Assembly: GCA_933228675.1 (NCBI GenBank)
Contig: OW121742.1
Coordinates: 18,823,850 to 18,887,849, forward strand
Reading direction: 5' to 3'
Source of the DNA: Stomorhina lunata
Taxonomy: Eukaryota; Arthropoda; Insecta; Diptera; Rhiniidae
DNA: 64,000 bases
Shown: positions 1 to 61,800 of the stretch, one piece after another
Numbering within the stretch: the stretch's first letter is position 1
How the letters are laid out: every line of letters starts with the position of its first letter
Position numbers and translations under genes: made by a program
The notes under the pieces: generated by a model
The model's input: the letters and a program-made list of their open reading frames with translations, nothing else
The model's database searches: none
What the model was told of the DNA's origin: nothing

Positions 1-215
1 TTCGTTAAACATTTTTTTCTATAGAAAAATATCGTTAAAAAATTTCTATACAAAAAAATTGTTGCTATAAAAAAATTTTACATCAAAAATTTTCTATAAA
101 AATATATATGGAGAAAATTTTCTATGAAAATTGTTTATATCGAAAAGAGATTTTATTTCTAAAATTTTTCTATTCAAAATAAAAAAGAAATTTTTAAAAA
201 ATGTTTTGACAAAAT
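1..215. repeat. AT-rich palindromic array, degenerate edge copy (array A)
   Basis: Partial units with TTTCTATAGAAAAAT and CGTTAAA linkers lie at the left edge of the window, inside the intron upstream of the exon at 286. They resemble the array at 60.4-62.7 kb. The array stops about 70 bases before the splice acceptor. Confidence 0.75.
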
Positions 216-285
216 TTTTATTTTATGTTATATTTGTCTGTTAAGGAATTATTTTTTATTAATTATTTTCTTCCCCTATGTGCAG

Positions 286-1445
286 ACACCAAAAACAAAG
301 AGGCTCTTTGCAATCCCTACCACAACATTGATGATCCCTATGGAAGGCCAGCTTTATGGGAAGAGATAGCCAGCTCAATACAAAATATAGATCCTGAAAA
401 TGCTCCTATACTAGGCTCAAGTCCAAATACAATGCATCAACATACCCAGCAGCAACAAAACCAAACATCATCAACAACACCCACAGGCAATACATTGCTA
501 ACGCAAGTCAAAATGGAAGCAATTGATGATTCTCTACTAGAGACATTATCAACACCATTGCTCAGTCCTTTGGAGATAAAAAAAGAAAATACATCATCCG
601 CTTTGACCATGCAACCGTTGACACCACAACAAACACCCACGCATCACTATTATGGTCAAACACAATTGCAAACGCATCAAGCTTATCAACAGCAACATCA
701 TATGCTCCATCCACAAGCTCAACAGCACCAGCAGCAGCATCATCATACACATCCGCATCACCTTCATACGCAACATCAGCAACATTTACAGCCTCATCAT
801 ATGCAGCCACAAACGCATCATCATCATCATTTACAGCAATCGCAACATTTATATCAACATCATCCCAGTTTAACGGAAGAACATCATTTGTCCTCAATGT
901 TTACCAATTTAAATTCCCACAATCATAGCCTTCACAATAGTAGTAGTCATTCGCATGGTCATCAGCTGTTGCATAGTAATAGCAATAGTCCCTCCAATCG
1001 TTGCAGCAGTACAGCCAGTAGTCACAATGCTGATCTCAGTCTTACAACCGATTCGGCTAATCTTTTGAATTTAAATGGTTCTTCGTCAGGGGATCATGTT
1101 AGTAGTTATCACCAATATGGTCATAATAATTATTTAAATGATAGTTTAAGTATAAATGCAACAGCAACACAACAACTGGCTCAAAATTCAACAATACATC
1201 AGCATCATCATCACCATCAACAGCCTCAGTCTCAGCAGCATCCCCACCATCTTACCACATTAAACGCCTCGACGCAGTCAACAATTGGGTCTCAACATTC
1301 AACAGCTACAGCCGCTTTACAAAATCTAAAAAATCTCAATAATAACAACAACAACAATAGCAATAGTAATAATAATAATTATACAACTAATGCATCGACT
1401 ACACCAACAACAGCCACTACACCTTACCCATGGCATAGCAGTCAG
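286..1445 (+). CDS. dar1: dar1 exon with Gln/His-rich activation region (internal coding exon)
   Basis: The acceptor is CCCCTATGTGCAG ending at 285, and the donor is CAG|GTAAGT at 1446. The frame is open leftwards to 225, but 225-285 is intron, so the ATG at 225 is not the start. The exon begins with a conserved-looking non-repetitive block ([14 protein letters not shown], then [18 protein letters not shown]). It then becomes dominated by His and Gln runs encoded by CAT/CAA/CAG, and by Ser/Asn-rich stretches at 900-1400. The segment [18 protein letters not shown] includes a VKME-type site that could be sumoylated (inference). The exon ends in phase 0 and joins the exon at 1719. Confidence 0.85.
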
Positions 1446-4400
1446 GTAAGTTTAAGTTTGTCTTGGTTTAGTTTGGTTTCAAATATTTGAAACCCAAAAG
1501 AAATAATTTATTTAATTGCATTTTTTATTATCATTATTCATAGTCTTAAACTCATTCAGACAAACACATTTTTTTATGTGCAAATTATAGAAAAAAAAAA
1601 CGAAAGACTAAAAATAAATAAGTTGTCTTGGTTTAAGTCGTTTATATTAAATGTATTTTATATTTTATTGACGTAATAATAATATTATTATGTTTTTTTT
1701 GTATATTTTATTTAATAGCCTTTTCATAGCAGTAAATACCAAATACCCGCTCCATTACCGCCACCACCTCATCATTTACAAAATGCACAATTATGTCCAC
1801 CTGCTCTAATACAGACCGCACAACAGCAACAAACTAATCAAACAAGTACTGGTCCGATTAGTGGTAGTACGGCGAGTAATAGTAGTTCAAGGCATATGTT
1901 TGTACCGCCACTAACACCTCCCAGTTCAGATCCCGGAAGTCCGGGTAGTTCAATGGCAGCAGCAGCCGCACATGCTGTAGCTCAAGCTAATCAACATCAA
2001 CATCAGCATCAGCAACAACAGCATTCACATTCACACCAACAACAGCAACAACCAAACAATAGACGTACAACTCCACCGCCTCCATATCAACAACAGCAGC
2101 TACAACAACAACAACAGCAACAGCAGGGTCATCCACTTTCCTCTATTTGCCCCAATATTATAACACTGCATTCTAGTTCTCCCACAGCTGTGGGCCATCT
2201 TATGAGTCCGGGTCGTTCTCTTACCACATTGGGCCAAACAGGTGCTCAGCTAATGGTTAATTCATCGGCCAATAGCAATTTAGCTACAACTAACAGTAGC
2301 AACAGCAACATTATGACCAGCTCAACGACAAGGGGCGGTAATCATTCATCAGCGACATCAGCCTCTGCTACACCGTCACACTTGGCCAATTTAATTGTGC
2401 CAACGGTGCGTACGGCACGCTATAATCGTCGCAATAATCCGGAGTTAGAAAAGAGACGTATACATCACTGTGATTATGTGGGTAAGTAGAGAAGAAGTGA
2501 CAAATTTTTTAATTTTTAATTTAAATATTAAAGTCGAAAGAAAATAAAATTGAATAAGGTTTGTGTCGTAAGTCTTTCGTTTTGCTAAAACTAGAAAGAT
2601 GCTTTCATAATAATAGGGTCAAAAAATTGTCTATTGAAAAAGTTTATTGCGAAAAATTTTCTTAAATAAAAAGATAAGTACCTGGTTGACCGAGCCTTGC
2701 TCGGAGCTTTATGATAAGCATTTTATGCAAATATTCAGTTAATTTCGAATTATTTTATTTATATTTTCCGATCAACACATATTTTGCATAGTTTACAGAT
2801 TAACTCATTTTGAAAAAATTTGGAAATTGGACATACCAACAAAAACCTCCGTCGACTCATGCGCAACAACTTTGCTAAATATTATAGCCTGATCAAATGC
2901 ACAGTTTACGATTTATTTCATTTTGAGTACTTTTCAGTGGCGCCACCTGAAGTTGTTCATACCGACTAAGAAATCTTCGTCTGCTTATGCGTAACAACTT
3001 TTCTAATGATTATAACATTTTGAGTAATTTTCAGTGGCACCTTTGGTCATTCCCATTAATAAACCTTCGTCGGCTTATCCGCAACAACTTTGCTAAAGAT
3101 TATAGCATGATTAATATGTACAGCTTACGATAAAATTGACTTTGAGTAATTTTAAGTAGCGCCACCTATCGGAAATTATTCACACCAATTTAAACACCTT
3201 CGCTGGCTCATGCGCAACAACTTTGCTAAAGATCATAGCATGATCAAATATACGGTTTACGATTTAATTAATTTTTAGTAATTTTCAGTGGCGCCACCTA
3301 ACGGAAATTAGTCTTACCAATACTTAAAAACCTTCGCCGGCTTATCCGCAACATCTTCGCTAAAAAGCATAATATGATCAAATTCACAGTTTACTAATCT
3401 ATAAAGAACATACATACAAACATTCATTTGTTTAAAAGTTATAACATTACTCATTTTCCCCCTTTTCATCCACTACTTTCAAAAAGTTCCATATGCTTAT
3501 TTGGTACTTCTTTGGTACCAATTGAATTCGGTACATTTTATTAAAACGCAGTTAACAAAATTCCTCTGTCAAGTCATCATTTTATCCCTTTTTTACCCAT
3601 TTTGGCCCCAAAATCAAAAAAGTACCAAGTGTGTGTTCGATATTTCTTTCATATCTATTGAATGCAGTAAAAAGTTTTTTTCTATATTCTTTGGTTTAAA
3701 ATAAAAGAGTGGGTTAAAAAAGTACCAAAAAAACTATTTTCACCCTTTTTTACCCCCTATCGGACATAGTTTCAAAAAAGTACCAAACACCTGTCCGCTT
3801 ATGTTCATGGCTGTTTAAAACGTAATTTTAATTTTGTTTCTATACCTATTACTTTAGGGTATATAACGTTTTCGATTTTTTCCCCTTTTTGCCCGTTTTC
3901 TAAATTCTAAAGCAAAATAATACAAAAAAATTTCCGACAATTTATAAAAAAAATTTTAAAAATTGTACTTAAATATTATGAGTTGTTGACAAAAACTCTA
4001 TTATTTCGGGACTCCCTCATGGTCCCAGTTTTTTTGATTTTATATTTTGATATCAACACTATAATCCATATTTGACAGAAGGATAAAGGAAATAGAAGAT
4101 ATGCTTTTTAAAATATCCTTGACTAAAGATCATAATGGATACCCTTGTTCTCCAACACTTGATTGAATGTTAATTAAAATAATATAAGACCACAGGCCAT
4201 AGCCCGAAGTATGGGCCTAGTTTTATAAAATTCCGAAAAAACCGTATCAAAACTTATAGGCATATAAAATGGGTATGTTTAAAAAAAATCTTGGAAAAAA
4301 AACGAACCACAATAAAATCTTTACCAAAGCGAAATTTAAAAAGAAATCTAAATATTTGTCTGAAGAACTTTAAAAATTGTATGACCTAAGAGAATGTATA

Positions 4401-40400: not shown

Positions 40401-43400
40401 CCACTATAGTCTGACTAGAATATAGTCTTCAAAATTGTCTTGACTTTGGTCTGAACTATCATCTAAACTGTAGTGTAATAAATTGTCTCGACTATGGTCT
40501 GGATTATTGTCTCGATTATAGTCTAATGTCTTGACTATAGTTTTGACTATTATCTTGTCTTTAGTCTGGGCTATTATATTAACTGTATTGTGGAAAATTG
40601 ACTATAGTCTAGGCTATTGTTTTGACCAAAGTCTGAGCTATTGTCTCGAATATAGTCTTCAAAATTGTCTTGACTATAGTCTGAATTAGTTTTGACTGTA
40701 ATCTTGTCTATAGTCTGGGCTATTGTCTTGGCTGTAATGTGAACAATTGTCCCGACTATAGTCTGGACTATTGTCTCGTCTATAGTCTGTACTATTGTCT
40801 CGACTATAGTCTGGATTATTGTCTCGATTATAGTCTAATGTCTTGACTATAGTTTTGACTATTATCTTGTCTTTAGTCTGGGCTATTATATTAACTGTAT
40901 TGTGGAAAATTGACTATAGTCTAGGCTATTGTTTTGACCAAAGTCTGAGCTATTGTCTCGAATATAGTCTTCAAAATTGTCTTGACTATAGTCTGAATTA
41001 TTTTCTCCATTATAGTCATTACTAATGTCTCAACTGCAGTGTGGGCAATTGTTTGAATTCAATCTTGACAATTGTCTCTACTAAAGTCGGGGCTATTGCG
41101 TCGACTATAATCTGGACTATTGTTTCGACTATACCCTGGACTATTGTTTCCACAATAGTCTGGACTATTGTCTCAAATACAGTCTTCGAATTTGCATCGA
41201 CTATAATCTTAAAATTTGTCTTGACTACGATCTGGGGTTTCCTTTTGGTTGTAGTCTAGACTATTTTCTCGAATATAGTATCTAGTCACTAGTCACTTTA
41301 GTCTGAACTGCTTTCTTGATTATAGTCCTTTTTAGCTTAAACTGTTGGCTCGACTGTTGTTTCGACTATAGCCCGAAATATTGTCTTGACTATAAAATTT
41401 TATTTCTTAGGTTCCAACATTGTTTTTCTAAATTTGTTTATATAAAATTAAAATGTTCTAATGCCCGTACGATGTATTTCATTTGCAATTTATTTAACTT
41501 TTATTATTATATTCTTGATGTGCTGTGGCGATGACCAGGTCTTTTGGCCAGAACACGTATTAGCATTTAATAAATAACGATGAAAGGGGAACCAAGCCAC
41601 GCTCAGTTGTGGTGGTATTGACTCCAGTGGTTGGTCTAGTGCTGTTCCAATGTACATGTTGCATTTATGTTCTTGTCAATTGTTTCAATGTTTTGTTAGA
41701 AAATCGTTATTTTTTCAAAGACTTTTGTGTCTTGTTTTAACGCTTGTTTTCAGCTTTAATTTTCTTTGTTTTTTCTTCATTTATTTATTAAGATTTTTTT
41801 CCATTTATTTTAAACCATGAATTAGAATTTATTGTAATTTTGTTTTATTCTAAAAACTTTTATAGCTATTAAATGTGGAAAAAAGTTTTCATATATTTTT
41901 ATACAGATTTTTTTTAGTATATTTTCAGTAAAATAAAGTTTGTTCATGTAAACGACATTTGACAAATTGTTTTTGATGTATTGTATATTTTAATTAAAAT
42001 AGAAAAAAAAGCTTTACATTTCTAGGAAAATATTGCTAAAGTGAGTATTTGAAATATAAAAATAAATATTACTTAAAGCAAAAGTAACGTGGGAAAATAT
42101 TACAGCCATAAGTCAGAGATATCATGTTCTAAAGTCAATTAAATCTTTAATGAATATAATTAAAAAAAGAACGAGAACTAGAAATTATAAGACCAGAAAG
42201 TAACCGCTGGCGATGAGTTTGTAGAATTGATTCTTGCTTCTACACTGTAATAAACTAAGTGAAAAAATATTTGCTATAAGTTTTGTCTTGCTATAGTCGA
42301 GACAAAGGTTCGGCAATATCCGAAAACACAAAGTCCATTCCTTAATCAAAATAATAGTTCAGACTTAATCTAAAAAATAGTCCGCACTACAGTCAAGACA
42401 ACAATCTAGGCTATAGTCAAGAAAATTTTTCAGACCGAAGTCGAAAAAGCCGAGGGGTAAACAAGATAATAGTCAGTAATACAGTCGATATTTTCAAGAA
42501 ATGATCTAGACTAGAATATTTTCTCGACTATAGGATTTTGTCTTGATTACAGTCTTGAATGTGTCTCGACTATAGTGTCTCGACTATAGTCTTGGCTATT
42601 ATCTTGTCTATAGTCCGAACTATTGTCTTGACTGTAATGAAGACAATTGCCTTGACTTTAGTCTGCGCTATTGTTTCGACCATAGTCAGGACCAATGTCT
42701 CGAATATAGTTTTCAAAATTGTCTAGACTGTAATGTTTAAAATTGTCCCGACTATAACATTCTCTACTTTTGTCTTATCTATCGTCTTGATTATTATCTC
42801 GACTTTTGAATTACTGACTTGACTATTATCACCACAACATTCTGGCTAATGTCTTGACTATAGTCGGCTATAGTCTTTGAAATTTTCTAAAAAATTATCT
42901 GGACTATAGTACTTAAATTATTTAAAAATTCATTCAAAACACTAGTCTTACCTCAAGACGATAGTCCATACAATAGTCGAGATAATACTCCAGGCTAAAG
43001 TCGAAACAATATTCCAGACTATAGTCGCGCAACAAGTCCACACTTTAGCCAAGACATACACCAGATTACAGTTGATACTATAGCTTTTATTGGAAGTTAT
43101 GCGTTATAAAATTTTCTTGTGAAAAATTTTTCATTATAAAATCCTCCTATAGAAAATTTTTTGTTATAGAATTTTCTCATAGAAAATTTTTTGTTATAGA
43201 ATTTTCCTATAGAAAATTTTTGGCTATAAATCATAAAATTTTCTTATAAAAAATTTTTCGTTATAAAATTTTCGTATAAAAAATTTTTGTTATTAGAAAA
43301 TTTTCGTAATAAAATTTTCTTTTAGAAAATTTTTCGTTATAAAATTTTCTTATAGAAAATTTTTCGTTATAAAATTTTCTTACAGAAAATTTTTTGTTTT

Positions 43401-46400
43401 AAAATTTTTTGTTTAAAGTTTTCCTGTAACAAAATTTTTGTCTTAAAATTCTCTTTTAAAAAATGTTTCGTTGTAAAATTTTATTATAGAAAATTTTTCG
43501 TTATAAAATTTTCTTACAGAAAATTTTTCGTTATAAAATTTTCTTACAGAAAATTTTTCGTTATAAATTTTTTTCTAGAAAATTCTTTGTTATTAGAAAA
43601 TTTTTTGTGTTATTAGAAAATTTTTCGTTATAAAATTTTCTTTTAGAAAATTTTTCGTTATAAAATTTTCTTATAGAAAATTTTTCGTTATAAAATTTTC
43701 TTACACAAAATTTTTCGTTATAAAGTTTTCCTATAAAAAATTTTTTATCTTAAAATTCTCTTTTAACAAATGTTTCGTTATAAAATTTTCTTATAGAAAA
43801 TTTTTTGTTATAAAATTTTCTGACAGAAAATTTTTCGTTATAAAATTTTTTCTAGAAAATTCTTTATTATAAAATTTTCTTAAAGAAAATTTTTAGTTAT
43901 AAAATTTTTTCTAGAAAATTTTTTTATTAAAATTTTTTTATAGAAAATTTTTCGTTATAAATTTTTCATTGAAAATTTTTCTTCTTAAAATTTTCTTACA
44001 AAAAATTTTTTGTTTTAAAATTTTCTTATAGAAAATTTTTCATTATAAAATTTTCTTACCGAAAAATTTGCGTTATAAATTAATTTGTATATAAAATTTT
44101 TGATTATAAAATTTTCGTAAAGAAAATTTTTCGTTATAGAATTTTCTTGTAGAAAATTTTTCACTATAAAATTTTCTTACAGAAAATTTGTTTCTAAAAG
44201 AAAATTTTTTGTTATAAAATTGTCCTATAGAAAATTTTTCATAATAAAATTACCTTATAGAATTTTTTTCGTTATAAAAGTTTCTTATACAAAATTTTTC
44301 CTTATTAAATTTTCTTATAGAAAATTTTTCGTTATAAAATTATCATATAGAAAATTTTTGGTTGTAAAGTTTTTCTATAGAAAATTTTTCACTATAAAAT
44401 TTTCTTATAAAAAATTTTTCGTCATAAAATTTTCCTATAGAAAATTATTTGTTATAAAATGTTCTTATAGAAAATTTTTCATCATAAAATATTCTTATAG
44501 AAAATTGTTCGTTATAAAATTTTCTTTTAAAAAATCAGTTGTTATAAAATTCTCTTATAGAAAGTGTTTTGTTATAAAACTTTCTTATAGAAAGTGTTTT
44601 GTTATAAAATTTTCTTGTAGAAAATTTTTTGTGATAAAATTTTCTTGTAGAAATTTTTTCTTTATAAAATTTTCTTTTAAAAAATTTTTCTTCATAAAAT
44701 TTTCTTATAGAAAATTTTTCGTTATAGTATTTTCGTTTAGAAAATTTTTCGTTAAAAAATTTTCTTATAGAAAATTTTTCGTTAAAAAATTTTCTTATAG
44801 AAAATTTTTCTTTATAAAATTTTCTTATAGAAAATTTTTTGTTATAAAATTTTCTTATAGAAAATTTTTCTATTAAAATTTTCTTATAGAAAATTTTTCT
44901 ATTAAAATTTTTAAAGAAAATTATTTTTTCATCAAACTTCAATTTCATTAAAATCAACTGTAGTACCAATCTAATCGACTATAACACAAATCTATAGATT
45001 ATTTTTCTAAATGTTATTATATCATGATATTATTCATAGTATAAATAAGTTGCCATAAGCTGTTATTAAATGAAAATCCCCCTTAAAACAAACTGATAGA
45101 CATTGAGTCTGCTTTATTCTTCAAAGACAATGAATGACTTAAATCTTTTCTTAGAATTAATTAGACAACAAATAAAACTATCAGCAAGTTTCTAATTATA
45201 ACAAACAAACCAACACAAATCAAGTATATGTCTTAAGTCTTTTGTTTCAGAGAAAAAAAAATCCATAATTTATATGTAATTTTCTAAAATCATAAAAAAA
45301 TATTATAAAATCCTTAATTATCCACTTATATCTTTTAAATCTTTAACCACAACGAAAAATGATCCAATTATTTTCCATTTCCAATTAAAGTCAATGAATG
45401 CATTTTTTCATGAAATCAATTAACCATTAACACACAATAACTCAAAATACCAGACGTATGTGTGTGTGTGTGTATGTAAGTGTGGAAAAACCTCAGAAAA
45501 ACTTCAAATTCAATTTAACAATGTGTTATGATTCATGCATTACACCAATTAATGTTTATTTTTTAACACCTACGCACCACTAAATAAATAGTAAAAAAAA
45601 ATCTAAAAAACAAAATTGTATAAAAATCTATAACAAAATCACTAGCAAAGCCATTGTTGTGAGTCGAAAACTTTCACATTCACCCTCGTACAATGACAAA
45701 CTGCATTGCTGTCATTTTGGAAACAAATTAAGAATTAAGTTGATAGTATTGAATTACAATAAACGCGTACAATGAAAAGTGCATTGTACGCAATAATATA
45801 TTAATAATAATATAAGAATTAAGTTGATAGTATTAAATTACAATAAACGCGTACAATGAAAAGTGCATTGTACGCAATAATATATTAAATAAGTCAATAG
45901 TTAAATTAGTATAAATAGTAATAACATTTAGTTAAGAGGGGGAATTTTTGTAAATAAAGCAACCAATCAACACCTACTATTAGTAGGCAATCCACTAAAT
46001 AATTGTTTTTTATTTTAAATAGAAAAAAGCCTGACATACACCAGCCTTTAAAGCGGGTCCCTGGACGGCAATACTTTAAAATAAGAAAACATAACATTTT
46101 GGCGCAGCCGGTAACCGCGGAAAAAATTTTTTCGTATAAATTATTAAAATTCGGTTTATAATTTTAATTACGAAATTTTGCGCGGGTTAAGAACTAACTG
46201 GGTTTTGTATTCCTAAGGTACATGATAGGAGCGGTCCAATAAAAGACTAAACACTAGCTACCTTTGGATCGTTTTGTCCTGCATTGAAGGAAACATAAGA
46301 CCCAAATAGGGATTGTGCAAGATTGGCAAACTGATAAGACTTCAGTTTGAAAGTTGCGTACAAAAAAAAAAAAAACCCAAACAAAATTATAATATTATTA

Positions 46401-49400
46401 ATAATAAAATTAATAAATATAATAATAAATAAAAAGTTTCAAACGAAGTTGGTTAAATCGTCCTGCGTCACAGCACAAGATAATTTGATAAAAGACTAAA
46501 CACTAGCTACCTTCGGATTATCTAGTGCTGGGGAGTGGAGCGGTAAGACTAACTGGTTGTGCACAGGGTAAGGCGGACTTGTTAAAGCTACGCTACTTCC
46601 GGCTTGCCTTGGGCAACTTTTGGAACTTTAATAATACAACGGTTTACTTTACTGCTCGAAGGAAAATGACGACAGTCTATGGATCTATGGTAAGTATATT
46701 CTAAATGGACAATCCTCAGACAAAAACCGACGAACTTATAAGTAAATTAAACAGACATAGTTACTCTGTTGACAGCTTACAGGTTTTAGCGTGGGAGGAA
46801 TTAAGACGTATAAATTTAGACAAGAAGGTTATAAACGGACATAGGGAAAAAATAAGACAGAATAAACTAACAAAATTAGATGAAGTAGGATATTTGATAC
46901 AATTGATAGGAGAACTGAATGAGGACCAATCGACAGAGTTAAAAAATAAAGTAAGTGAATTAGAAGAGACAAAGAGGTTGTGTGAAAATCAGAGCAAGAA
47001 ACTGAGGGAACAGATAAATTATACAGACAATTTATTAGAAGAAGTCGTAGCGGAAAATTCCGAGTTATTGCAAACTTTAAAGAAAAAGGGATTAAGCGAA
47101 AAGGAAATTGATAGACATATAAAACAAGAACAACTGATAAACACAAAGGACGACACTATACAAAGACTACAGACTGCATTGGAGAACGCGAGGCGAGAAT
47201 TAGATACTATAGACAGATCAAGATCACCGACTCAATCGTTGAGCTTAGAGTTGAAAGGTGCTGGAATACCTTCAATAGTCGTAACTGGGGCTCAAACAGC
47301 AGAGACACAAGGTCAGGAGATTTTATCGAAGGTAAAAACTGTGTTGAGGAACGCAAAGAAAGCCGGCAGTAGAGAGTACACGGCGGAGACAAAATCCAGC
47401 AAGCTAACCGAGCTAGAGGGGTATAAACAGTCATTTGAGGAATTAGCCATCACCGACGTACACGTTTTGGAAGACTTCAGAACTTCTCTAGAGACAGCGC
47501 AAAATATCTTAGAAAGACGGTGTCAATCTCCTTTACCTGAATCAAAAATAGACAAAATGCCAGCCTTGTCGGAAATAATAAAGATAGTGAACAACGCTGT
47601 TCCTACATTCTTTGGTACTGAAGGGCCCGACTTGTCATCGGAAGTATTTAGATACATTCAAGGATGCAAAATGGTGGAGAGAGAGCTGTTAACCCATGCC
47701 GATGGTCAACTATCTCAGGATATAATTGAATGCCTTAAATTAAGACTTATGGGTTCCGCTTATTCGAAGTTATCACAGTCTAATTTTAACTCAATAGATG
47801 CTTTTTGTGATAGCATAAAAAAAGTATACCTAAAAAAGAAAAATGTCGACCAGATAAGGGAGTTGATTATAAACAGTAAACAGAACGTAAGGGAACCAGC
47901 TAGTAAGTTTGGAGAGCGGCTAGAGAGCTTACTGAAGGAAGCTATTGAAGCAGTTAGTAGTGAGTGGCCAGAAGGAGCAGGTCGTAGCGCAATGATCGCC
48001 GACTTTAAGAGGATTGCTGTTAAAAGCTTCATTAAGGGACTGAGAGACCAGGCACTGAAGGTAAGATTCATTGGACAGGAAAAGCACGAGTTGAACTCTT
48101 TGGTATCACTGGTGGAAGAAGCGGAGGAACTTCTTGGAGAAGGTCAGCATGTTATAAATGCGATTTCTTCTCTGACACCCTGCAGTTTCTGCAATGAGCA
48201 AGGTCACGAAAGGGTAAATTGCCGAAAACGATTAAATACACCGTACTGTATTAACTGTGGCATATATGGACACGAGGTCGGCCCGATGTGCGAAGACAGA
48301 AGCAGTAGGAAAGTGACTTGTGATCACTGTAGAAAAAAGGGTCACACAGTAGAACATTGCAGACAAAGATTGGCATCATTGTATTGCAGAGTGTGTCGGA
48401 CAACTGGTCATCAGGAAAATCAGTTTTGTGGCCAAAGGCAGCAAAGTGATCAAAACCAGTGGAGGAGCAACCGACCAACTAACACCAAGATACCCCCGGA
48501 CAGAAATTTTGAAATGAGAAACGACAAAAATGGGACCCAACTGTGTTACAAATGCGGTCAACCAGGCCACTTTGCGGGAGCATGTCGGAATAATTCTGTC
48601 CCACGAAGTGCAAACTACTCTCGGACAAAAGAAAGTCCAATAAATAATTCGGGAAATGCCAATCGACCCAGTTACGGCCAATAACTGGGGTAGAAGAAAT
48701 AAATAACACGATTACTTGGCGCAAACATAAAAAGGAGAAAGTCCATGAAAATTTAACAGATGAAGAACCTAAGCAAAAGTTACAGGATGTCCCTGAGGCA
48801 GGAGAAGCTACTAAAGTGATCCACAAGGGTACGGTTTCCACCACGCGCTCTTGCCGAGATGTCAAGGAAAAAGAACAAGTGGTACTTGTTGACACAGGAA
48901 CTAAAGTCAGTACAACAACAACAACAGGGAAACAAGTCACGGGTACTGCTCATAAGAGAAAAACATTCGAAGATAGCCAAATCAATATAAGTAACAGTGG
49001 AATAGAGTCACCCGACAGTGTGGACACAGTTTTCATCACGCTTCCATGCCAAGAGGCAAAGGAAGGAAAACTGGTCTTACTTGTAGACACTGGGGCAGAT
49101 TCCAGCATAGTGAAAGAAGAGGCTATTAACGCTTTTCAGAACGGAAATAAGAGAGAAGTAAGAAAATTGGCTGGAGCCTTTGGAGGCAGTGCTTCAACGT
49201 TGGGCGCAGTACAGATACATGTGGTTGGAGGGAAAGCTCCATGGATTTTTCATGTGGTCGCTCAAGGAAGCGGAGTTCCAGGTGACGGAGTTCTCGGGCG
49301 AGATAATATTTGGGGGAAAAGTATAATAAATTCCATGACTCGAACCTTGAAAATTTTCGAGAACAACAATTTAGTTAAAACATTCTTGCTACAAAATGAA

Positions 49401-52400
49401 AGAGCGAGCATAGAATCAACAAACATTAAAAATTTCCTGGTTAAGGAGAGGACAATTACTATGGTGCCAGTTAATTTGAAAACGAAGGACAAAACTGTGG
49501 TGATTCACAAGCAACAACTTCACCCAGGGGTCTATGTAGGAAATACTATAGTCAACGTTCGCAACGGAAATGCAATAGTACCCGTATTGAACGCAACAGA
49601 AGAAAGTATGCCGGTGGGCAAAAACATAAAAATACAGTTCTCGAGGTTAAATCATTACACGGTCCATAAAGAAACCGAAACTTTAAAGACACCCATTATA
49701 GACGGGACTGAAAGAATAAGAGAATTGAAAGAATTATTAATGAAGGAAAAAGATTGGAACTCGGAGGAAAGAGCTTCGATGAACGCAATCTGCGAAAAAT
49801 ATCACGATGTATTTATGCTGTTTGGAGATAAGCTGCCCTTCACAACGCTGATTGAACATAAAATACCCACAAAATTGGATCAACCACCAATCAACCAGAA
49901 GCAGTACAGGCTACCCCATGTACACAAGGACGAGATTAATCAACAAGTATCTGAGCTCTTAAAAGAAGGAATTATAGCTCCGAGCACATCACCATGGAAT
50001 TCACCTCTATTATTGGTGCCTAAAAAATCACAGGACGGAAAGACCAAGTTTAGAATGGTTGTGGATTTCCGGAAACTTAATGACGTCACTACTAAGCAGG
50101 TATTTCCTATTCCCCGAATAGATGAAATATTAGATCAATTAGGAAACAGCAGATACTTCACCACTCTGGATTTGGCAAGTGGGTATCATCAAGTGCTGTT
50201 GGATAAGGAAGATAAGAAAAAAACAGCTTTTAGCACAGACAAAGGACATTTTGAGTTCAACAGAATGCCGTTTGGGTTGACAGGTGCTCCAGCAACGTTC
50301 CAAAGAGTTATGAATACAATATTAACAGGCCTTCAAGGTTTAGATTGTTTTGTGTACCTAGATGACATAGTCATTTACGGAAGGAATGTGGCAGACCATG
50401 AGAAAAAAATAACGAACGTTTTATCTCGTCTGCGCGACAGCGGTCTTAAATTGAATACGGGAAAATGTCAGTTTCTGAGGAGAGAAATTGTTTACTTGGG
50501 ACATAAGTGTTCAGAAAAAGGAGCACTCCCCGATCCCACGAAAGTAGAAAGTGTGAAGAACTTAAATCCTCCAAGAAGTATAAAAGAAGTTCAAGCGCTA
50601 CTAGGGTTAGTCAACTACTACCGAAAATTTGTAAAGGGTATGGCGGAGCTGGCATCACCAATAACCCGCCTGCTCAAGAAAAACTCCAAATTTGTCTGGA
50701 CAAAGGAGTGCCAACAAGCCTTTAATAGAATTAAGGAAAACATTATTAGTCCTCCCATTCTAATTTACCCAGACTTTTCGGAATCTTTCCGTGTAACCAC
50801 AGATGCTAGCAACGAAGCACTGGGAGCAGTACTTTCACAGCTAAGGAATGGCAAAGACCACCCCATAGCATTCGCGAGTAGGACCTTAAGCGACACTGAA
50901 AAAAGGTACTCAACAATTGAAAAGGAAATGTTAGGCATAGTGTGGGCGACACGCACTTTCCGCCCCTATTTATTGGGACGACCTTTTACTGTATTCACGG
51001 ATCACCAACCCTTGAGGGGCATTGCAAACCTAAAAGACCAGACTTCGAGACTTGCTCGGTTCAGGCATAAATTGTCGGAGTATGAATTCGACATTGCCTA
51101 CAAGCCGGGAAAAACCAACTTAAATGCTGATGCGCTGAGCCGACTTCCTGTAGAAGACCAGAAAATACAGGTTGTTACCAGAGCTCAAAAAAGAGAGTTA
51201 AATAAAACAAGCATAAAAGAAGCTCAAAATAATGAAGATTCATCAGAAGAAAGGATCGCTGAGGAAAATTTCAGTATGGAGCACAGAGATGCCGTTAAAA
51301 TTTTAACCGACAGAAAGGACATCGAAGAAGTTCTTCGAAGCTTTCATGACTCGCCTTTAGGTGGGCACCAGGGTGTCTGGAAGACCATAAGGCGAATTAG
51401 GAGACAATACAGATGGAAAGGTATGCAACGGGATATTAACAATTATATAAGAAAGTGTCAGAAGTGCCAAAAGAACAAGTGCGGATCAGTCGGCAAAGAA
51501 CAAATGGTGTTAACCGACACACCGCAAAGACCATTTGAAAAAGTTTATATGGACATGGTGGGCCCTTTGCCAACCACCACTGCAGGCAACAAATACATTC
51601 TCACTTTTCAAGACGATTTGTCGAAATTTTTTATTTGTGCACCAATGCCGGATGCGGAGGCTGAAACGGTGGCGAAAATTTTTTACAGTGAAATCATAAC
51701 CAAGTATGGTATTCCAACAAAATTAATAACGGACAATGGCTCGAATTTCACTTCCAAGCTTTTCGGAAGTGTCTGTAAACTTTTGAGGATAAAGAAACAA
51801 CATATCACTCCATACCACCCTCAAGCAAACGGGTCGTTGGAAAGAAGCCATCGACCACTTACAGAATATCTAAGGAGTTTTGCAAAAGAGGACGGATCAA
51901 ACTGGGATCAGTGGTTGCCTTCGGCTATGCATGTGCATAACCATACAGATCATACAGCCACCAACCAAACTCCCTTTAGAGTACTCTATGGTTTTGACGC
52001 ACCTTTACCGTCGAATCTTAAGGTTAGTACTCCTTTATACAATCCTTATGACTATCCAAAATTTCTCAAGTACCAAATTCAGCGTGCATACGAGATGGCG
52101 CGCAAACATCAGATAAAGGCAAAAATAAAAGCGAAAGAACGGTATGACAAAAATGCAAAAAATAGTATAATTCATATAGGTGATCAAGTGTTGGTAAGGA
52201 ATCAAACACGGAAAAACAAGCTCTCACCCCTATGGGAGGGGCCTTATAAAGTGACAGGTATTCCCTCCCCAGTTAATGTTCAAATACTAGCGAAAGGAAA
52301 GCAGAAGATTCTACACCGTAATTTGGTCAAGCTTTACAGACAAAACCAAGAACAAATAGTGTCAACCGACAAATCATCGTCGCCAAAGAATTATAGTCTA

Positions 52401-55400
52401 TTCTTTGAAAAAAAGAATACTTACAAACATACTAACGACAGAATAACCTCATCGGGTAGTGAACAGCGTCACGAAACGGCGAGTGATTCAAAAGGTATTA
52501 GTGCTTCTATAGAAAAATTCAATCTTTGTGATAGTACAGAAGACAAGGGTGTTCGCACTTCATCGCATTCCTATGATAGAGATAGTACAGGACCATTGTT
52601 GACTTCCACCACGTCCCATAATAGTACGGACGATAATACAGAAGGCTTATGTGGTCTAAGAAATATCGGTAATACTTGTTTTATGAACACCATTATTCAG
52701 TGTTTTAATCACACAAATGAATTGACAAAATTCTTACTAAATCATAATGCAACGAAATCTACAACGTCCAAAAATCAACAAATCTTATTTGAGCTTTCCA
52801 AATTAATTAAGGAAATGTGGAGAGGTAATGTAAACACCGTAACACCTACGGAATTAAAACGAGCCTTTTCTGCCAAATATCACATGTACAGTAACTACAA
52901 TCAACAAGACGCTCAAGAATTTTTACGATTATTTTTGGATTCGTTGCATGGTGCCCTCAATACTGGTACAAAGGGTGAACATTTAAAAATAGATGATAAT
53001 TTAAGTGACAATAAAAAGGCCGAACTTACTTGGAAATGGTATGGCCGTCATGAGAATTCTTTAATACGTGATTTATTTGTAGGTCAACTTAAGAGTACAT
53101 TAAGATGTACCACGTGCGGCAATACTAGCGTTACTTTTGATCCCTTTTGGGATTTAAGCGTTCCCCTACCTTCATCGTCAAGTTGTAAGCTTGACACCTG
53201 CTTGGATTTGCTTTTACGCGAGGAGGTTTTGGAGGGCGACGACATGCCCACATGTTCAAAATGTCAAACGCGGCGAAAATGTACAAAAAACTTTAAAATT
53301 CAACGATTTCCAAAGTATCTTGTTATACATTTAAAACGTTTTTCCGAGACATTGAAGAGTAAACTCTCGAATATTGTCGAATTTTCCACGGGTGAACGTG
53401 AATTGAATATGGGTCCTTATGATGCCAATGCTAACCCAAATATTTGCTATTCCTTATATAGTGTCACAAATCATATGGGTTCAACTGCTGGTGGACATTA
53501 TGTAGCTATTTGCAAACATCCTGTCTCAAAGAAATGGCATAAATTCAATGATAATCTTGTGAGTGATTCATTGTCGGAACATAATCTTGTCTCGTCCAGT
53601 GCTTATATATTGTTCTATGAACGTGTGTAAATAAGTATGATGTTAAACTTCCACAAAAAAGAAACAGCAGCGATGTTGAAATCATGTTAAAATGGTAAAA
53701 TAATAATAACAACCTGATAGAAACAAATTAGTAATTTATTATATGATATGGGATGACTAAATTTTTTTTTTTTGCACTGGCTTAATGTTTTTCATTTAAT
53801 AGTTTTAAAGACAACATTAAATTATTGTGTATAAAACATCCATCAAACTAGGATCAATACTCATTATCGCACCAAACCGAAAAATATCAATCGGTTTTTA
53901 ACGTTTTGTCTTTAGTTGTACTTTGCAGAAGATAACAACGGATTATAAAAACTAATATATTTCACATTTTTCGAAATAATTAATCATAGAGTAAACTCCT
54001 TACATACTTACTTCTATCAGTCACACATCAATTTAAAAATTTAAAAAATTTGTATTTAAGGTGCCAAAGATTTTTTTTAACCTGCATTTTTCTGTCGATT
54101 TTTTGAAAATTATAAGCCCGCGAATAATTTTCTATTGAAATCGTTTAAACAGCTAAAGTGTAATAATTCCTTTTCTCTTTATAAAAAAAATTATTATAAA
54201 AAAAAAACTTTTTATAATTTTTTTTTTTACAAAAATTAAACTGAACTCACTTTTTAATGAAAAAAGTGCTGACATATCAGTTGAAATTTGAAACAAAAGC
54301 AACAAATAAAGTCAAAAAAAAAAAAATTAAGTGAAGAAAAAATATATAAAAAAAAAAGAATCTTTAAAATTTTTTGTACCAAAAGTTGTGTAACTTTAAT
54401 TGATAAAAGGTTATTTTATTAAAAAAAAAAAGAAGCGATTGAAATAAAATCAATAAAGCAATCTTAATTTAACTAATTTTATTTTCCGAAAGAAGTGCAA
54501 TTCGACAAAATAAAATTGGTCATATGGTGAACTCAAAAAATATCCAATATTGCAAATATGGAAATATGCAAATTGACAAAATACTGGTTCATACTGCAAG
54601 AGCAACAAAAAGAAAAAACACAATATATGTATTTATATTACTACAAGAATTATTACACGATAAGCATTTGCAAGAATATTGCATGCTTACACACATTTTA
54701 AATTAAAAAAGAAAAAAAAAATTTATTAAAAATAATAACAACACACTATATAGTATTACACGGTAAGCATTTGCAAAAATATTGTAATTTATATTAAAAA
54801 AAAATATACATATAAATATATAAATAAATATATATAATTGTAAGTCAAAAGAAAAGAATTTATAAAAATGTATCTCTAGATCAATAAGTAAGAGTAGGTT
54901 AATACTCAGTACGGTGCTCTCCAACATAAGCAGTTAATGATTTATCATCTCTGGAAAGCTTAGATGTGGAGCAGTCGCAACATTTCAATGCAACCGACTC
55001 AGTGTCAACCAATTGCAGATCAAAACAAAAGTCAAGTTGTCTGTTGTTGCAATCAAAGAGCACATGCTCAATGTTAGTATAAGCCTCTAAGATGCAAGTA
55101 AAGTCCATAAACATCTAACCTACAACGTGATTATCTCTGGCGGAATTGAAGATGTACGGGACTTCCCAAGTTCGAGGATCTAATTAAAAGTTCTTGTATT
55201 AGATCTCCCTGGAGCAAATGTTGAAATTTGTTTTTATATGCAGACTAAGTTGTATAACAGCAGTCTAAGTTATGTAACAGCCCCATATTCGGGTTCATAA
55301 ACCGCTGGATGTCATTCTAGATAAAGAAACTATGTGCTACTCAATTCTTCGCTGGCAATCAAATGAAACATACTCTTCAGTAGTGGCTATTCTTGCCAAT

Positions 55401-55788
55401 TGGTTTCCTAAGAAACAAAATGCGTCATGTGTTTGTTTTGGCTACCATTCATATACTTTTTGCCTGAAGATGTATTGAAACCAACGTCGAATGATAGTCT
55501 ATATAAAGAATAGACCGATCAAAAGAAGGATTCTAGCCTGCTACATTGTTAGTTTGTGCAGGAAATAATCTGAAATAACACTATTACTACATCCAATAAC
55601 TGCCTATTTTACGATACCTATGGGAAATTTCAGTTACGAAAAACAACATTAACAACAACATCAACTACAACACATCTACAACCAGTTCAACTACTCGAAA
55701 AAAAAAATCAACAAGAAACAACAACAGCAACAACCAACATTTTTGAGAGCATTGTAAGAAATATTTCCATAGTTTTAGGTACCATAAG

Positions 55789-55854
<66 letters not shown>

Positions 55855-58800
55855 ATAATAAACGCGTACAATGAAAAGTGCATTGTACGCAATAATATAT
55901 TAAATAAGTCAATAGTTAAATTAGTATAAATAGTAATAACATTTAGTTAAGAGGGGGAATTTTTGTAAATAAAGCAACCAATCAACACCTACTATTAGTA
56001 GGCAATCCACTAAATAATTGTTTTTTATTTTAAATAGAAAAAAGCCTGACATACACCAGCCTTTAAAGCGGGTCCCTGGACGGCAATACTTTAAAATAAG
56101 AAAACATAACACCATCAATAAAGCCAGCTTTGAAGTTGAACTAGAAAATCGAAAAAAAACTCATATCCAAGTATTAAGGCCTTTATTTTGCAGTTTATAT
56201 AAGTACTTGAAGCCTTTTTGCGAGCTTTATCTCTAGTAATTTTGTTGCTTAATAACCCTATTTTTATGGCAAAGGCCTCTACCAAAATCAAATAAAAAAA
56301 GGGGAGCAAATTCAATATTACAGTTATCTTATGATATTAATGTCTAACTGCCGTTTTACTAAATAACTTTTAAAGCTACTGTTTTTGATGTTGGGAAGTT
56401 GTTGTTGTTGTTGTTGCTGGTAAAATTTCTAAGCTGTTTCAAGTACTTGGGAGTATTATTGTTATTATTGTTGCAATTGCAATTATGTGCCTATTAATGG
56501 ACTAAATAAGGCGAGCACGCTTATAAATGCTAAAATACTGACAACATCAATCGTTTTCATGAACATGATTGTTGAATTCTGTAAAATAGAATTTCCACAC
56601 TAACGAGCTTGATTTTTTTTTCTATCTATCTATTTTATTTTTCTTTCTTGTATTTTGTTATTGTTGTTCATATTTTGCTGCTGCTGCCTGTGTGCCACTG
56701 CCACTTATGAATGCTCCACTTGCAGTTGTAAGAATGAACACTATTATGTTAAGAGACTGTAAACGAAGAAGGAGTTACGTTAACAACACAAACCTCTTAA
56801 GACGTATGTGTCTTAAGTCTTTTGTTTTCAACTAAGAAAAATACATAAAACAAGCGAAGTTTCCTGAAATTTTATCAAAATATTATAAAATCCACAAATT
56901 TTTCTTTTAAGTACAATATCCAATTTTTTATAAAATCAAGAGAATTGCCCATACAAGAGTTTTAGAATAGTTCAATATTATCGAGATAGTACAGTCAAAA
57001 CTATAGTCCATATATAAGCAAGACTAAAGACGAAACAAAGTTCAAACTTTAGTATAGATAATAGTCCAGATTTAAGTCGAGACAATAGTTCAGACTTTAG
57101 TCGAGACAATAGTCCAGACTTTAGTCGAGACAACAGTCAAGACTTTAATAGAAACAATAGTCCAGTCTTTGGTCGAAACAATAGTCCAGACTTTAATCAA
57201 GAGAATAAAAAAGATTATAATCAAGACTATATTTAAGATAATAGTCCAGACTTTTGTCGAGACAATAGTGAAAAATTTAGTAGAGAAAATAGTTCAGACT
57301 TTAGTAGAAACAATAGTCTAGACTTTAGTCGACTAATAAAGAATATATCTATGACTATAGTCGAGACAATAGTTCAGATTTTAGTAGAGACAAATGTTAT
57401 AACAATAGTCCAGACTATAGTAGAGGTAATAGTCTAAACTATAGTCAAGACAATAATCGAGATAATAGGCCAGAAAATATTCGGTACAAAAGTACAGTCT
57501 ATTTTCGAGACAAAAAACGAAGATACGGTCGAGACAATAGTCAATAGTCATGACTTAAGTCGCTACAATAGACCCGGCTTTAGCCGAGACAACAGTGAAG
57601 ACAATTGTTGGAACAATTTTCTAATAATAGTTCAGAATACTTTATGTTCGTCATGACAGCAAAACTTATAAACGAGACAAAAAACTAAGATATTGGGGAG
57701 GCATTAGTTCAAACCATAATTTAGAAACAAGTCTTAGAAAAGCTTTTAAAATTTAAGCTTTTCCTATTACAAAAAAATTAATATTAAAAATTTTCTACAG
57801 AGAAAATTTTAATATCAAAAATTTTTCTATCGAAAAAAATTTAAAATCAAAAATTTTTTTATCGAAAAAACTTTAATATCAAAAATTTTTCTATCGAAAA
57901 AATTTTAATATCCAAAATTTTTCTATCGAAAAAATTTTAATATTAATAATTTTTCTAAAAATTTTAATATCAATAATTTTTCTAAAAATTTTTTTGATAT
58001 TAAAAATTTTTAGAAAAATTATTGATATTAAAATTTTTCTAAAGAAAAAATTTTAATATCGACAAAAAAAATTTTAATATATTAAAATTTTTCTAAAGAA
58101 AAAATTTTAATATCAAAAATTTGTCTAAAGAAAAAATTTTTCTAAAGAAAAAATTTGAACATCAAAAATTTTTGTAAAGACAAAATTTAAATGTCAAAAA
58201 TTTTTCTATCGAAAAAAATTCTTTATATCAAAAATTTTTCTATCGAAAAAATTTAAATATCAAACATTTTTCTATAGAAAAAATTTTAATATTAAAAATT
58301 TTTCTATCAAAAAAATTTTAATATCAAAAATTTTTCTATCAAAAAAATTTTAATATCAAATATTTTTCTATCGAAAAAATTTTAATATCAAAAACTTTTC
58401 TATCGAAAAAATTTTAATATCAAAAATTTTTCTATCGAAAAATTTTAATATCAAAAATTTTTCTATCGAAAAAATTTAAATATCAAAAATTTTTCTATAG
58501 AAAAAATTTTAATATCAAAAATTTTTCTATAGAAAAAATTTTAATATCAAAAATTTTTCTATAGAAAAAATTTTAATATCAAAAATTTTTCTATAGAAAA
58601 AATTTTAATATCAAAAATTTTTCTACAGAAAAAATTTTAATATCCAAAAATTTTTCTATCGAAAAAATGTTAATAAAGAAAAATTTTCTATCGAAAAAAT
58701 TTTAATATCAAAAATTTTTCTATTGAAAAAAATTTAAAATCAAAAATTTTTTTATAGAAAAAATTTTAGTATCAAAAATTTTTCTATCGAAAAAATTTTA

Positions 58801-61800
58801 ATATCAAAAATGTTTCTATTATAAAAATTTTAATTTAAAAAAATTTTTCGATCGAAAAATTTTAAATAACAAAAACCTTTCTAAAGAAAAAATTTTAATA
58901 TAATAAATTTTTCTAAGGAAAAAATTTTAATATCAAAAATTTTACTATAGAAAAGATTTTAATTTTAAAAAGTTTTCTTAAGAAAGACTTTTAATATCAA
59001 AAATTTTTCTGCAGAAAAAAAATTATTATCAAAAATTTATCAACAATTTTTCTATAGAAAAAATTTGAATATTATTAATTTTTCTATAAAAAAAATATTA
59101 ATATCAAAAAATTCTCTAAAGAAAAGATTTTAATATCAAAAGTTTTTCTGAAGACAAAATTTTAATATCAAAAATTTTTCTATAGAAAACTATTCCGTCT
59201 ACCATCTTTATATTTAAGGAACATAAGCCTTTATATTGTTAGCAAAAAAATTGGGGAAAAAATTTATCTTTAATATTAAAACGCCTGTTTATTTTATTTT
59301 AGCTGTTGAATTGTTGTCTGCTTGTTTTGTGCTTCGCTGAATGCCTGCTTCTCTATAAGCCTTTTAATATTTAGTCAAGTTAAGAAGGAAAAAAAGCCTG
59401 TCACATATTATAAGGTTCATTTGTTGCTCCAATCCAGCCAGAAACCAACAACAAAATTTGAGCTTTTCTATATAATATTATTATATATTTTTGGTTAGAT
59501 TTTCTAAAAATTTAATAGACAAAAAGACAGACAGATAGACGGACTTAGATACATATATGAGCATATAAAGTGTATCCGTCCATGGTTATCCGTTCAAGAG
59601 TGTAGGCGGCATATTAGCTTCAATCAAAAAATCTGTTGCCAAATTTTGCTTTGAGTTTTTCTTAATATTTTTCCTCATATGAGATTTTTCTATATTATAT
59701 TTTTTTGTGGCTGTTTGGGGATTTAATCAATGCATTACATTGTCTTGTTAAAAGCAATTATGGTGCATTTTTTCTTCACTATCTGCTCAAAATGTGGCAA
59801 AAATTTTCTAAGAGACGTCATTTAAACCTTTTTCGGTTTAAGGTTTTTTTCTAATATTTCTTATTATTTTTTTTTTTGCTAATGCCTTTAACACAAATCG
59901 TTAATAGAGTTGAGTTCTTGTCTGATATGGCTCATTGATTTGATGGTAGTAGGTTGTGTGTAGTTTGATATATTCCAGTGTCTCTGTAAAAGATTTTTCC
60001 TGTTTATATAGAAAATATATTTAGTTTTTTTCTTTTGAACAGATGATTGGCTGTTTATTGTATTTAGTTGGCGGCTAAAAAAGTAGAGATTTTTGACATT
60101 TTCCTGGCAGTTGTGATGATTGCTTTGATTTGTTTTGATTTGCATCGTTAACTATTATGACAATAGTAATCAAATCCAATTGCCAAAGTCTAAGTTACTG
60201 GCTCACATGCATATTTAGTACACCTCCTCTATTTGGTTGAGGCTCCTTTTGTTAAGTTTTTCTTAATAAAGGAAATTAATGTGATGTCAAAGTTTTGATA
60301 AGCTAAAATTTTATTTGAAAATTTCAGTATTATGCAATGCAAAGTGGACAAGTATGTTCGGTCAAAACCGAAAACAAGATTTATTACAATCAGTTTTATT
60401 TATAATTTTTATATTTTTAAATTTAATTTAACATTTTTTAACGAAAAATTTTCTATATAAAAATTTTTTTAACGAAAAATTTTCTATAGAAAAAATTTTT
60501 TATTACAAATTTTTTTATAGAAAAAATTTGTTTACTAAAAGTTTTCTATAGTTGAAGTTTTTTAATGAAAATTTTTTTAAAAGAAAAAAATTTTTAACGA
60601 ATTTTTTCTACAGAATAATTTTCGTTAAAAAATTTTTTACTAAATTTTTTTTATAGAAAAATTTTCGTTAAAAATGTTTTCTATAGAATAAAAAATTTTT
60701 TCTATAGAAAAATTTTCGTTAAAAAATTTTTTCTATAGAAAAATTTTCGTTAATAAATTTTTTCTATAGAAAAATTTTCGTTAAAAAATTTTTTCTATAG
60801 AAAAATTTTCGTTAAAAAATTTTTTCTATAGAAAAATTTTCGTTAAAAAATTTTTTCTATAGAAAAATTTTCGTTAAAAAATTTTTTCTATAGAAAAATT
60901 TTCGTTAAAAAATTTTTTCTATAGAAAAATTTTCGTTAAAAAATTTTTTCTATAGAAAAATTTTCGTTAAAAAATTTTTTCTAAAGAAAAATTTTCGTTA
61001 AAAAATTTTTTCTATAGAAAAATTTTCGTTAAAAAATTTTTTCTATAGAAAAATTTTCGTTAAAAAATTTTTTCTATAGAAAAATTTTCGTTAAAAAATT
61101 TTTTCTATAGAAAAATTTTCGTTAAAAAATTTTTTCTATAGAAAAATTTTCGTTAAAAATATTTTTCTATAGAAAAATTTTCGTTAAAAATATTTTTCTA
61201 TAGAAAAATTTTCGTTAAAAATATTTTTCTATAGAAAAATTTTCGTTAAAAATGTATTTCTATAGAAAAACTTTCGTTAAAAAATCTTTTCTAAAGAAAA
61301 ATTCGTTACAAAATTTTTTCTATAAAAAAATTTTCGATTAAAAATGTTTTCTATAGAAAAATAAAAAAAAAAAATTTCTATAGAAAAAAATATACCAATA
61401 TTTATATCTCTTGAAAAATTTTCGTTAAAAATTTTTTTCTATAGAAAAATTTTCGTTAAAAAATTTTTTCGATAGAAAAATTTTCGTTAAAAAATTTTTT
61501 CTATAGCAAAATTTTCGTTAAAAAATTTTTTCTATAGAAAAATTTTCGTTAAAAAATTTTTTCTATAAAAAAAAAAAAAAATTTTTTATATCGAAAAATT
61601 TTCGTTAAAAAATGTATTCTATAGAAAATTTTTCGTTAAAAATGTTTTTCTATAGAATAATTTTCTTTAAAAAATTTTTTTTGTATAGAAAAATTTTCGT
61701 TAAAAAATTTTTTTTCTATAGAAAAATATTCGTTTAAAAAATTACGTTAGCATTTTTTCTATAGAAAAATTTTTGTTAAAAAATTATTTCTATAGAAAAT

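Follow-up and report, generated by a model that had tools for sequence, protein, structure and literature searches.

A Usp2-type deubiquitinase domain fused to Pol in a Ty3/gypsy-type retrotransposon of Stomorhina lunata

Deubiquitinases were previously known from DNA transposons and herpesviruses. Deubiquitinase or SUMO-protease domains are reported in Ginger1, Mutator and Helitron elements and in one transposase-C19 protein (PMC2836005, PMC6431247), the latter a Trichomonas protein cited in PMC2836005. The tegument-like deubiquitinases of Helitrons are active, and protection of the proteins on which transposition depends has been proposed as their role (PMC9741609). Insect retrotransposon polyproteins carry accessory helicases, and the accessible part of that report does not mention ubiquitin (PMC6338049). 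Here, we describe a long terminal repeat (LTR) retrotransposon of the fly Stomorhina lunata whose pol frame continues into a complete ubiquitin-specific protease (USP) catalytic domain of the Usp2 type. The element is of the Ty3/gypsy type and lies on the forward strand at positions 45655-56111 of the window, the whole 64,000 nt stretch that was analysed (contig OW121742.1, here C7; C7:18823850-18887849).

A USP in an LTR retrotransposon Pol was not found in the literature searched, namely the titles and abstract starts of the matches listed from openly licensed literature, which is weak evidence of absence. The main text of PMC9741609 contains no word starting with 'retro', and the accessible text on Troyka elements (PMC12440569) held nothing relevant.

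A pol frame that continues into a USP domain

Positions 48648-53630 read without a stop from protease, reverse transcriptase, RNase H and integrase into the USP catalytic domain, confirming the uninterrupted frame proposed in an initial annotation made from the sequence letters. The frame has 1660 codons, lies at -1 relative to gag and overlaps it, and its domains were recovered with Pfam. The USP domain itself (52647-53627, 327 aa) matched PF00443 (UCH) over its full length (positions 1-254 of 254) with 226.6 bits against a cut-off of 23.9, which is far beyond chance (E = 4.9e-67) and answers the test against this family that the initial annotation had suggested. The best Protein Data Bank matches of the pol tail were USP2 structures, to 4.3e-88. 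Codons for the catalytic residues were located at 52677-52679 (Cys1344), 53496-53498 (His1617) and 53547-53552 (Asn1634/Asp1635), together with two CxxC zinc pairs, CTTC and CSKC. These residues and pairs had been recognized correctly at the outset, whereas their first numbering (Cys1288, His1561, Asn1578 and Asp1579) was 56 too low, a counting offset. The full-length profile, the catalytic Cys, His, Asn and Asp and the two CxxC pairs place the predicted enzyme in peptidase family C19.

The genome searched comprised 728 Mb on 104 contigs, and all copy counts are lower bounds, with only the best candidates scored. The UCH profile gave at least 91 matches, 47 of which were taken as element copies by score; the others, taken as a group, are host USP genes, more diverged copies and fragments. 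Thirty-seven of the 47 belong to an open frame of 1659-1751 codons without a stop, and the other 10 are shorter or broken. An integrase-side search gave at least 79 matches, 44 of them full-length and near-identical, and every one of these 44 has a USP within 2.6 kb; three of the 47 USP copies are without a full-length integrase partner. Where the 3' parts of 40 copies were read, the USP was present in all 40 with 99.4-100% nucleotide identity over 969 nt. The 3' LTR fell inside the fetched stretch in 34 of these 40, and the non-coding stretch between USP and LTR varies far more than the USP. Twenty 5' edges were fetched; besides the window copy, 17 of 19 measurable copies are flanked by a 4 bp target duplication, the two exceptions being one copy with a 5 nt repeat and one without any duplication. 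The window element is thus a young element with near-identical copies, and constitutes one replicating unit.

These counts bear directly on whether the join could be an assembly artefact, or a Usp2 pseudogene that landed beside or inside a retrotransposon. The one point in favour of such an accident was prior expectation. The USP in 44/44 full-length copies and the separate target duplications around whole units exclude a misassembly or a chance neighbour, and older, diverged copies share the junction itself (L009 and L054) or, in L055, the USP together with short stretches of the element's 3' region. We therefore rejected this explanation, which we consider extremely improbable. The initial annotation had asked whether several copies in the genome share one pol-USP junction, which they do. 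It would have been overturned if all other copies lacked the USP and long reads exposed the join as a misassembly, an outcome contradicted by the 44 copies.

Probable capture from spliced Usp2 mRNA and retention of the domain

The pol tail was compared with proteins of ~530-1680 aa, and the best 120 of 5893 matches were considered. The top matches were Usp2 of blow flies and their relatives (Cochliomyia, Lucilia and Calliphora), with 75-84% identity. A single match that stood out by its source, P0103, proved on inspection to be Usp2, and none of the 120 carried a retroelement domain in Pfam annotation. The host's own Usp2 gene was found in pieces at C10:101794859-101807072, and window positions 52377-53652 align with it blockwise (C10:101803932-101794834, 73-93% identity). 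The alignment starts within an upstream Usp2 exon, ~90 residues before the catalytic domain, so that window positions 52377-52646 represent a captured pre-catalytic segment, or linker. The host counterparts of this linker are the blocks C10:101803932-101803786, 101803369-101803340 and 101800411-101800326, with 73-90% identity. At the other end, the final aligned block (53558-53652) is 92.6% identical and reaches 22 nt into the host 3' untranslated region (53631-53652 in the window).

Six host exons encode the domain. AG precedes all six and GT follows the first five, the sixth ending the gene, and the element is continuous where the host domain is interrupted by five GT...AG introns. The spliced host domain is 327 aa, equal in length to that of the element, and the two are 85.6% identical without an indel. 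The description of the insert as a 'complete' USP2-like deubiquitinase therefore holds for the catalytic domain; it does not hold for the whole of Usp2, as ~90 preceding residues are retained and most of the N-terminal region is gone.

In a tree of 27 Usp2 rows, a comparison with host Usp2 that the initial annotation had suggested, the element USP fell within the calyptrate Usp2 clade (support 99/98). Within this clade, and with support (93/94) short of the starred level, it groups with Lucilia, Calliphora, Cochliomyia and the host, on a long branch of 0.16. All rows of this tree are Usp2, and the distance to other USPs rests on the Protein Data Bank search.

The junction can be placed by comparison with related elements. 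The pol of L056, a 59%-identical relative, stops at ...NLVKLAG. P0125, a Pol protein described below, ends just past the integrase C-terminus (HRNLVKPYKVSTGDVNKST / ...NLVKPYKVSTGDVNKST), an end that may be a stop or a contig end. The window element runs on where the pols of P0125 and L056 end (...NLVKLYRQNQEQIVSTDKSSSPKN), and then enters Usp2 sequence.

With the Pfam match, the Usp2 tree and the many copies in agreement, we regard the observation as confirmed and the capture of a Usp2 catalytic domain by a Ty3/gypsy-type element as well supported, to the point of near certainty. The exon-by-exon match to host Usp2 without introns and the grouping with calyptrate Usp2 make a spliced Usp2 mRNA the likely origin. 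In the simplest reading, the capture would have taken place in a calyptrate ancestor by template switching during reverse transcription, inside a particle that enclosed host Usp2 mRNA. Of this history, the sequence itself shows that the host introns are missing, that the frame continues beyond the point where pol ends in the relatives and reaches the Usp2 linker, and that the element also took 22 nt of the 3' untranslated region of Usp2.

The USP was already present in three degraded relatives. L009 (C11) retains integrase, junction, USP and 3' region with 83% identity over 1.8 kb; L054 (C1) runs from the end of integrase into the USP; and L055 (C2) has the USP followed by short pieces of the element's 3' region (50 and 27 nt). 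We rejected the possibility that L009 and L054 are independent Usp2 retrocopies, given that integrase C-terminal sequence precedes their USP, and rejected it less firmly for L055, where the element sequence behind the USP amounts to the 50 and 27 nt pieces. The ratio of non-synonymous to synonymous substitution rates (dN/dS) in the USP, window element against L009, L054 and L055, was 0.37, 0.36 and 0.49, with bootstrap upper bounds of 0.60, 0.65 and 0.84. Between element and host Usp2, dS was 0.368 and dN 0.071, a ratio of 0.19 (0.11-0.29) that is partly due to the host branch.

Among the young copies, 42 of 47 were compared, of which 41 are full and gapless across the domain. Forty of these 41 have the catalytic Cys, His, Asn and Asp and the four zinc cysteines intact and no stop; in the remaining copy the residues are present and a stop lies within. 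Twenty-two distinct USP variants were found, a small set from copies that may include one duplicated block counted as two. The seven variants common to at least four copies are all synonymous, whereas the 15 rare ones comprise six synonymous and nine replacing changes, including one stop (Fisher two-sided p = 0.017). Purifying selection thus appears to have acted on the USP in copies that transposed, judging from these substitution patterns, and dozens of copies spread with the domain retained.

A passenger domain, captured by chance and carried along by one active copy without a selected role, would fit the near identity of the 40 copies (99.4-100% in the USP), which points to one recent burst with few selection events visible. 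The seven synonymous and no replacing changes among shared variants argue against it, as do the dN/dS values below 1 against three older USP-bearing relatives (upper bounds 0.60-0.84), the lack of any indel across 327 codons relative to the host, and the recurrence of deubiquitinases in related pols. We consider a passenger improbable.

Several observations weigh against the reading that we favour below, of a retained enzyme that acts in cis on the element's own proteins. The AlphaFold2 model of the pol tail was unusable (mean pLDDT 39.9), and the assignment of the fold rests on sequence. A dN/dS measured against dead copies blends selection with decay, and the integrase value against L009 (0.50) is no lower than that of the USP; the linker gave 0.47 (L009) and 1.14 (L054), from too few codons to interpret. 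The selection tests, including that on shared variants, are of modest power. The UCH search gave no USP match next to a partial pol copy at C7:76208370 (98% over positions 1-336 of the integrase-side piece). In four copies (L023, L038, L043 and L044), a one-base length difference in a linker homopolymer yields separate frames for pol (1262 codons) and USP (423 codons). Two of the four, 17 kb apart on C11, are probably one duplicated block, leaving about three sites in total. As the frame difference is inherited in common, it suggests that the split copies still spread, and fusion of the USP to Pol may be dispensable for the spread of copies.

The element has also changed where host enzymes have not. 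Eighteen of 225 positions that are invariant in 19 fly Usp2 rows are altered in the element, compared with 0-8 when single Usp2 rows were left out in turn. The count used 18 of the 25 fly tree rows plus the host; P0024, P0081, P0095, P0102, P0119 and P0121 were omitted for a length other than 327 or a register shift, and P0100 for its length of 328. The long branch and these 18 changes imply that the function of the element USP is no longer quite that of host Usp2; the host function is relaxed, and the preference for substrates or chains may have changed.

Erasers in related Pols and the possible role of the enzyme

An integrase-side protein search, in which the best 120 of 1103 matches were considered, identified Pols related to that of the window element. 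The closest among the matches listed is P0125 (76% over the integrase-side query), in which no USP was seen. The initial annotation knew of no other Ty3/gypsy pol-USP fusion, a statement that no longer stands: in P0160, Pfam places a UCH domain (2.7e-33) between RNase H and integrase. The best solved relatives of this USP are USP35 and USP46, and it is distant from USP2; among 1800 candidates, no relatives other than itself were found. P0130 carries a complete tyrosine phosphatase (4e-68, HCSAGIGR motif) behind integrase, in the same place as the window USP. In P0149, Herpes_teg_N fell below the cut-off (19.1 of 25), and the insert matches 8ADD (7.2e-10), which PMC9741609 identifies as the structure of a Helitron-encoded deubiquitinase.

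Macrodomains lie before integrase in further pols: P0195, P0225, P0173 and P0227 exceed the cut-off, P0178 and P0188 fall just under it, P0183 matches weakly, and P0211 is assigned by precomputed domain annotation only. In the four above the cut-off and in P0211, the macrodomain follows RNase H. The motifs of these macrodomains in Ty3-type pols presumably resemble those of ADP-ribosyl-hydrolase macrodomains. P0166 has a long linker without a domain match and P0144 a G-patch. Among pols from the same best matches, 40 of the 100 that could be measured have more than 150 residues between RNase H and integrase, and one of 108 measurable, P0130, has a C-terminal extension of more than 150 residues.

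An RNase H-region tree was built from 38 rows (the 36 of 58 candidate database rows that fitted the motif cut, the window element and L056) and rooted at the midpoint. The window element is sister to P0125 (100/100), with P0130 nearby alongside L056 and P0131. P0160 and P0149 lie outside the supported ten-member clade that holds the window element (100/99), and the three rows with macrodomains belong to the tree's other half. The differing place in pol, the kinship of the domains and the pol tree all indicate that the window USP and the P0160 USP are separate acquisitions.

We propose that the predicted active USP deubiquitinates the element's own Gag, Pol and integrase in cis, sparing particles and integration complexes from the proteasome, a proposal that we hold to be evenly poised between right and wrong. 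Two considerations led to it: tethering to Pol would put the element's proteins nearby, and related pols and Helitrons repeatedly carry deubiquitinases with other folds. Sitting at the C-terminus of Pol, the enzyme would enter the particle together with integrase, and the element protease may set it free. The element did not take over most of the Usp2 N-terminal region, so the tether to Pol, rather than the binding of host adaptors, would select the substrates, an arrangement that speaks for action in cis. Going by its title, a 1996 study by Menees and Sandmeyer reportedly found that stress blocks the formation of Ty3 particles in a ubiquitin-dependent manner.

The position directly behind integrase could instead indicate work in the nucleus or at the integration site, such as the deubiquitination, around the integrase complex, of histones or repair factors. 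Ginger1 transposases carry OTU or Ulp1 domains at the corresponding C-terminal position, and a role in repair was suggested there (PMC2836005). However, integrase comes after the add-on in the tested macrodomain pols as well as in P0149 and P0160, so the position is not conserved, and Pfam finds no chromatin-reading module in the window pol. We regard a nuclear role as unlikely.

Action in trans on host ubiquitin signalling, for example a lowering of Imd-type immune signalling, is similarly doubtful. The catalytic domain is 85.6% identical to that of the host enzyme, and the link between fly Usp2 and Imd to which the initial annotation alluded is in print: USP2 strips K48 chains from Imd and promotes Imd degradation, and its overexpression suppresses fly immunity according to a section heading of the same source (PMC4140012). 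Against this, most of the Usp2 N-terminal region is absent from the element, the catalytic domain of host Usp2 remains open in the same genome, and our analysis gave no link between the element and Imd.

Beyond the proposed protection of the element's own proteins, related Ty3 Pols may have gained erasers separately several times, in an arms race over protein tags. Deubiquitinases would have been acquired three times (Usp2 in the window element, and those of P0160 and P0149), a tyrosine phosphatase in P0130, and macrodomains in P0195, P0211 and their kin. Hosts would tag retrotransposon proteins for destruction or silencing, and the element would carry the eraser in its particle; we give this interpretation about an equal chance of being correct or incorrect. 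Ubiquitin-dependent control could be a line of fly defence against retrotransposons, strong enough to select a counter-enzyme. The idea is directly testable, since a host parent gene, many young copies and a USP-less sister element are available. The captured erasers in related elements suggest a general route by which retroelements adapt to their hosts.

Element structure and comparison with known systems

The span 45655-56111 given by the initial annotation is exact, with flanks that read CCAT on both sides (45651-45654 and 56112-56115). The 5' LTR (45655-46096; TGTTGTGAGTCG...AAAACATAACA) contains an 84 bp internal tandem duplication, and is followed by a primer-binding-site-like sequence spotted by eye (tggcgcagccggtaaccg, 46100-46117). 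Across copies, the 84 bp unit of the LTR U3 (window 45722-45888) occurs once, twice or three times in tandem depending on the insertion, as in L017 and L046. The gag open reading frame (46705-48684, 659 aa) encodes a zinc knuckle or knuckles (PF00098, PF16588). Within pol, Pfam finds the Ty3/gypsy order of protease, reverse transcriptase, RNase H and integrase, all on the forward strand. The aspartyl protease (RVP, 49077-49349) scored 20.2 bits, just below the cut-off of 20.7, and RVP exceeded the cut-off in three of seven related pols tested (P0130, P0149 and P0160). The reverse transcriptase (RVT_1, 50016-50447) is a stretch cut by the boundary of the analysed piece. RNase H (PF17919/PF17917) spans 50697-51083, and the integrase zinc-binding domain and catalytic core (Integrase_H2C2, PF17921; rve, PF00665) 51309-51821. 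A GPY/F-type motif, LWEGPY, lies near the integrase C-terminus (52230-52247; naming after PMC2836005). NCBIfam gave nothing but distant transposase matches to the integrase piece, and viral contigs, scanned once with P0004 and once with P0003, held no relatives.

Behind the USP lies an AT-rich non-coding 3' region (53653-55793) that differs in length among copies and has no collinear match to the host Usp2 flank or to L056. No stop-to-stop frame of at least 150 aa was found between pol and the 3' LTR, and thus no env of the kind expected of an errantivirus was seen. The 3' LTR (55858-56111, left edge approximate) is truncated at its 5' side in the window copy. Its U3 start is missing, as is the polypurine tract; the other inspected copies retain both (seven shown), the tract being visible by eye. 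The two LTRs of the window copy are identical across the 255 nt common to both, and the LTR ends are of the TG...CA type (TGTTGTG...ATAACA).

An A tract (55794-55851) lies ~2.1 kb past the USP stop, ~200 bp upstream of where other copies have their polypurine tract, and has very different lengths among copies. We considered whether it could be the fossil poly(A) tail of a Usp2 mRNA with a ~2.1 kb 3' region. This was not supported: the intervening sequence matches host Usp2 over 22 nt only, ending that distance after the stop, and the length of the tract varies freely.

The element sits in a ~40 kb intron of a Krueppel-like zinc-finger gene in the same orientation, flanked by exons of that gene (window 210-2489, ~22508 and 63155). 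We take the gene to resemble fly dar1. Long tandem arrays of ~30-32 bp units flank the element at 43000-44900 and 57600-59000, and one of them yields a spurious frame of 251 aa.

In its LTRs, 4 bp target duplication, gag, -1-frame pol with protease, reverse transcriptase, RNase H and integrase, and a polypurine tract visible by eye in other copies, the window element conforms to Ty3/gypsy (Metaviridae). It differs from P0125 in reading on into Usp2 where that protein ends after the integrase C-terminus, an end that may be a stop or a contig end. It shares with fly Usp2 an 85.6% identical catalytic domain with catalytic and zinc residues kept; unlike fly Usp2, its USP has no introns, lacks most of the N-terminal region, is joined to the end of integrase and exists in many copies. 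P0160 likewise has a USP (UCH) inside a Ty3-type pol, but between RNase H and integrase, distant from USP2 and in another pol clade.

Ginger1 elements have neither reverse transcriptase nor LTRs. They are cut-and-paste DNA transposons whose Gypsy-like integrase/transposase carries a C-terminal OTU or Ulp1 domain, cleaving ubiquitin or SUMO, and the accessible text of their description does not name a host donor gene (PMC2836005). Helitrons and Helentrons with VTD (tegument-like) and OTU deubiquitinases are likewise mobile elements with an active or predicted enzyme of this activity, but are rolling-circle DNA transposons with other enzyme folds (Erven et al. 2022, PMC9741609). The Ty3/gypsy m6A (N6-methyladenosine) demethylase elements of orchids resemble the window element as LTR retrotransposons with a fixed host-type enzyme that removes a mark, whereas theirs is an RNA demethylase, encoded in a separate extra open reading frame, in plants (PMC9289625).

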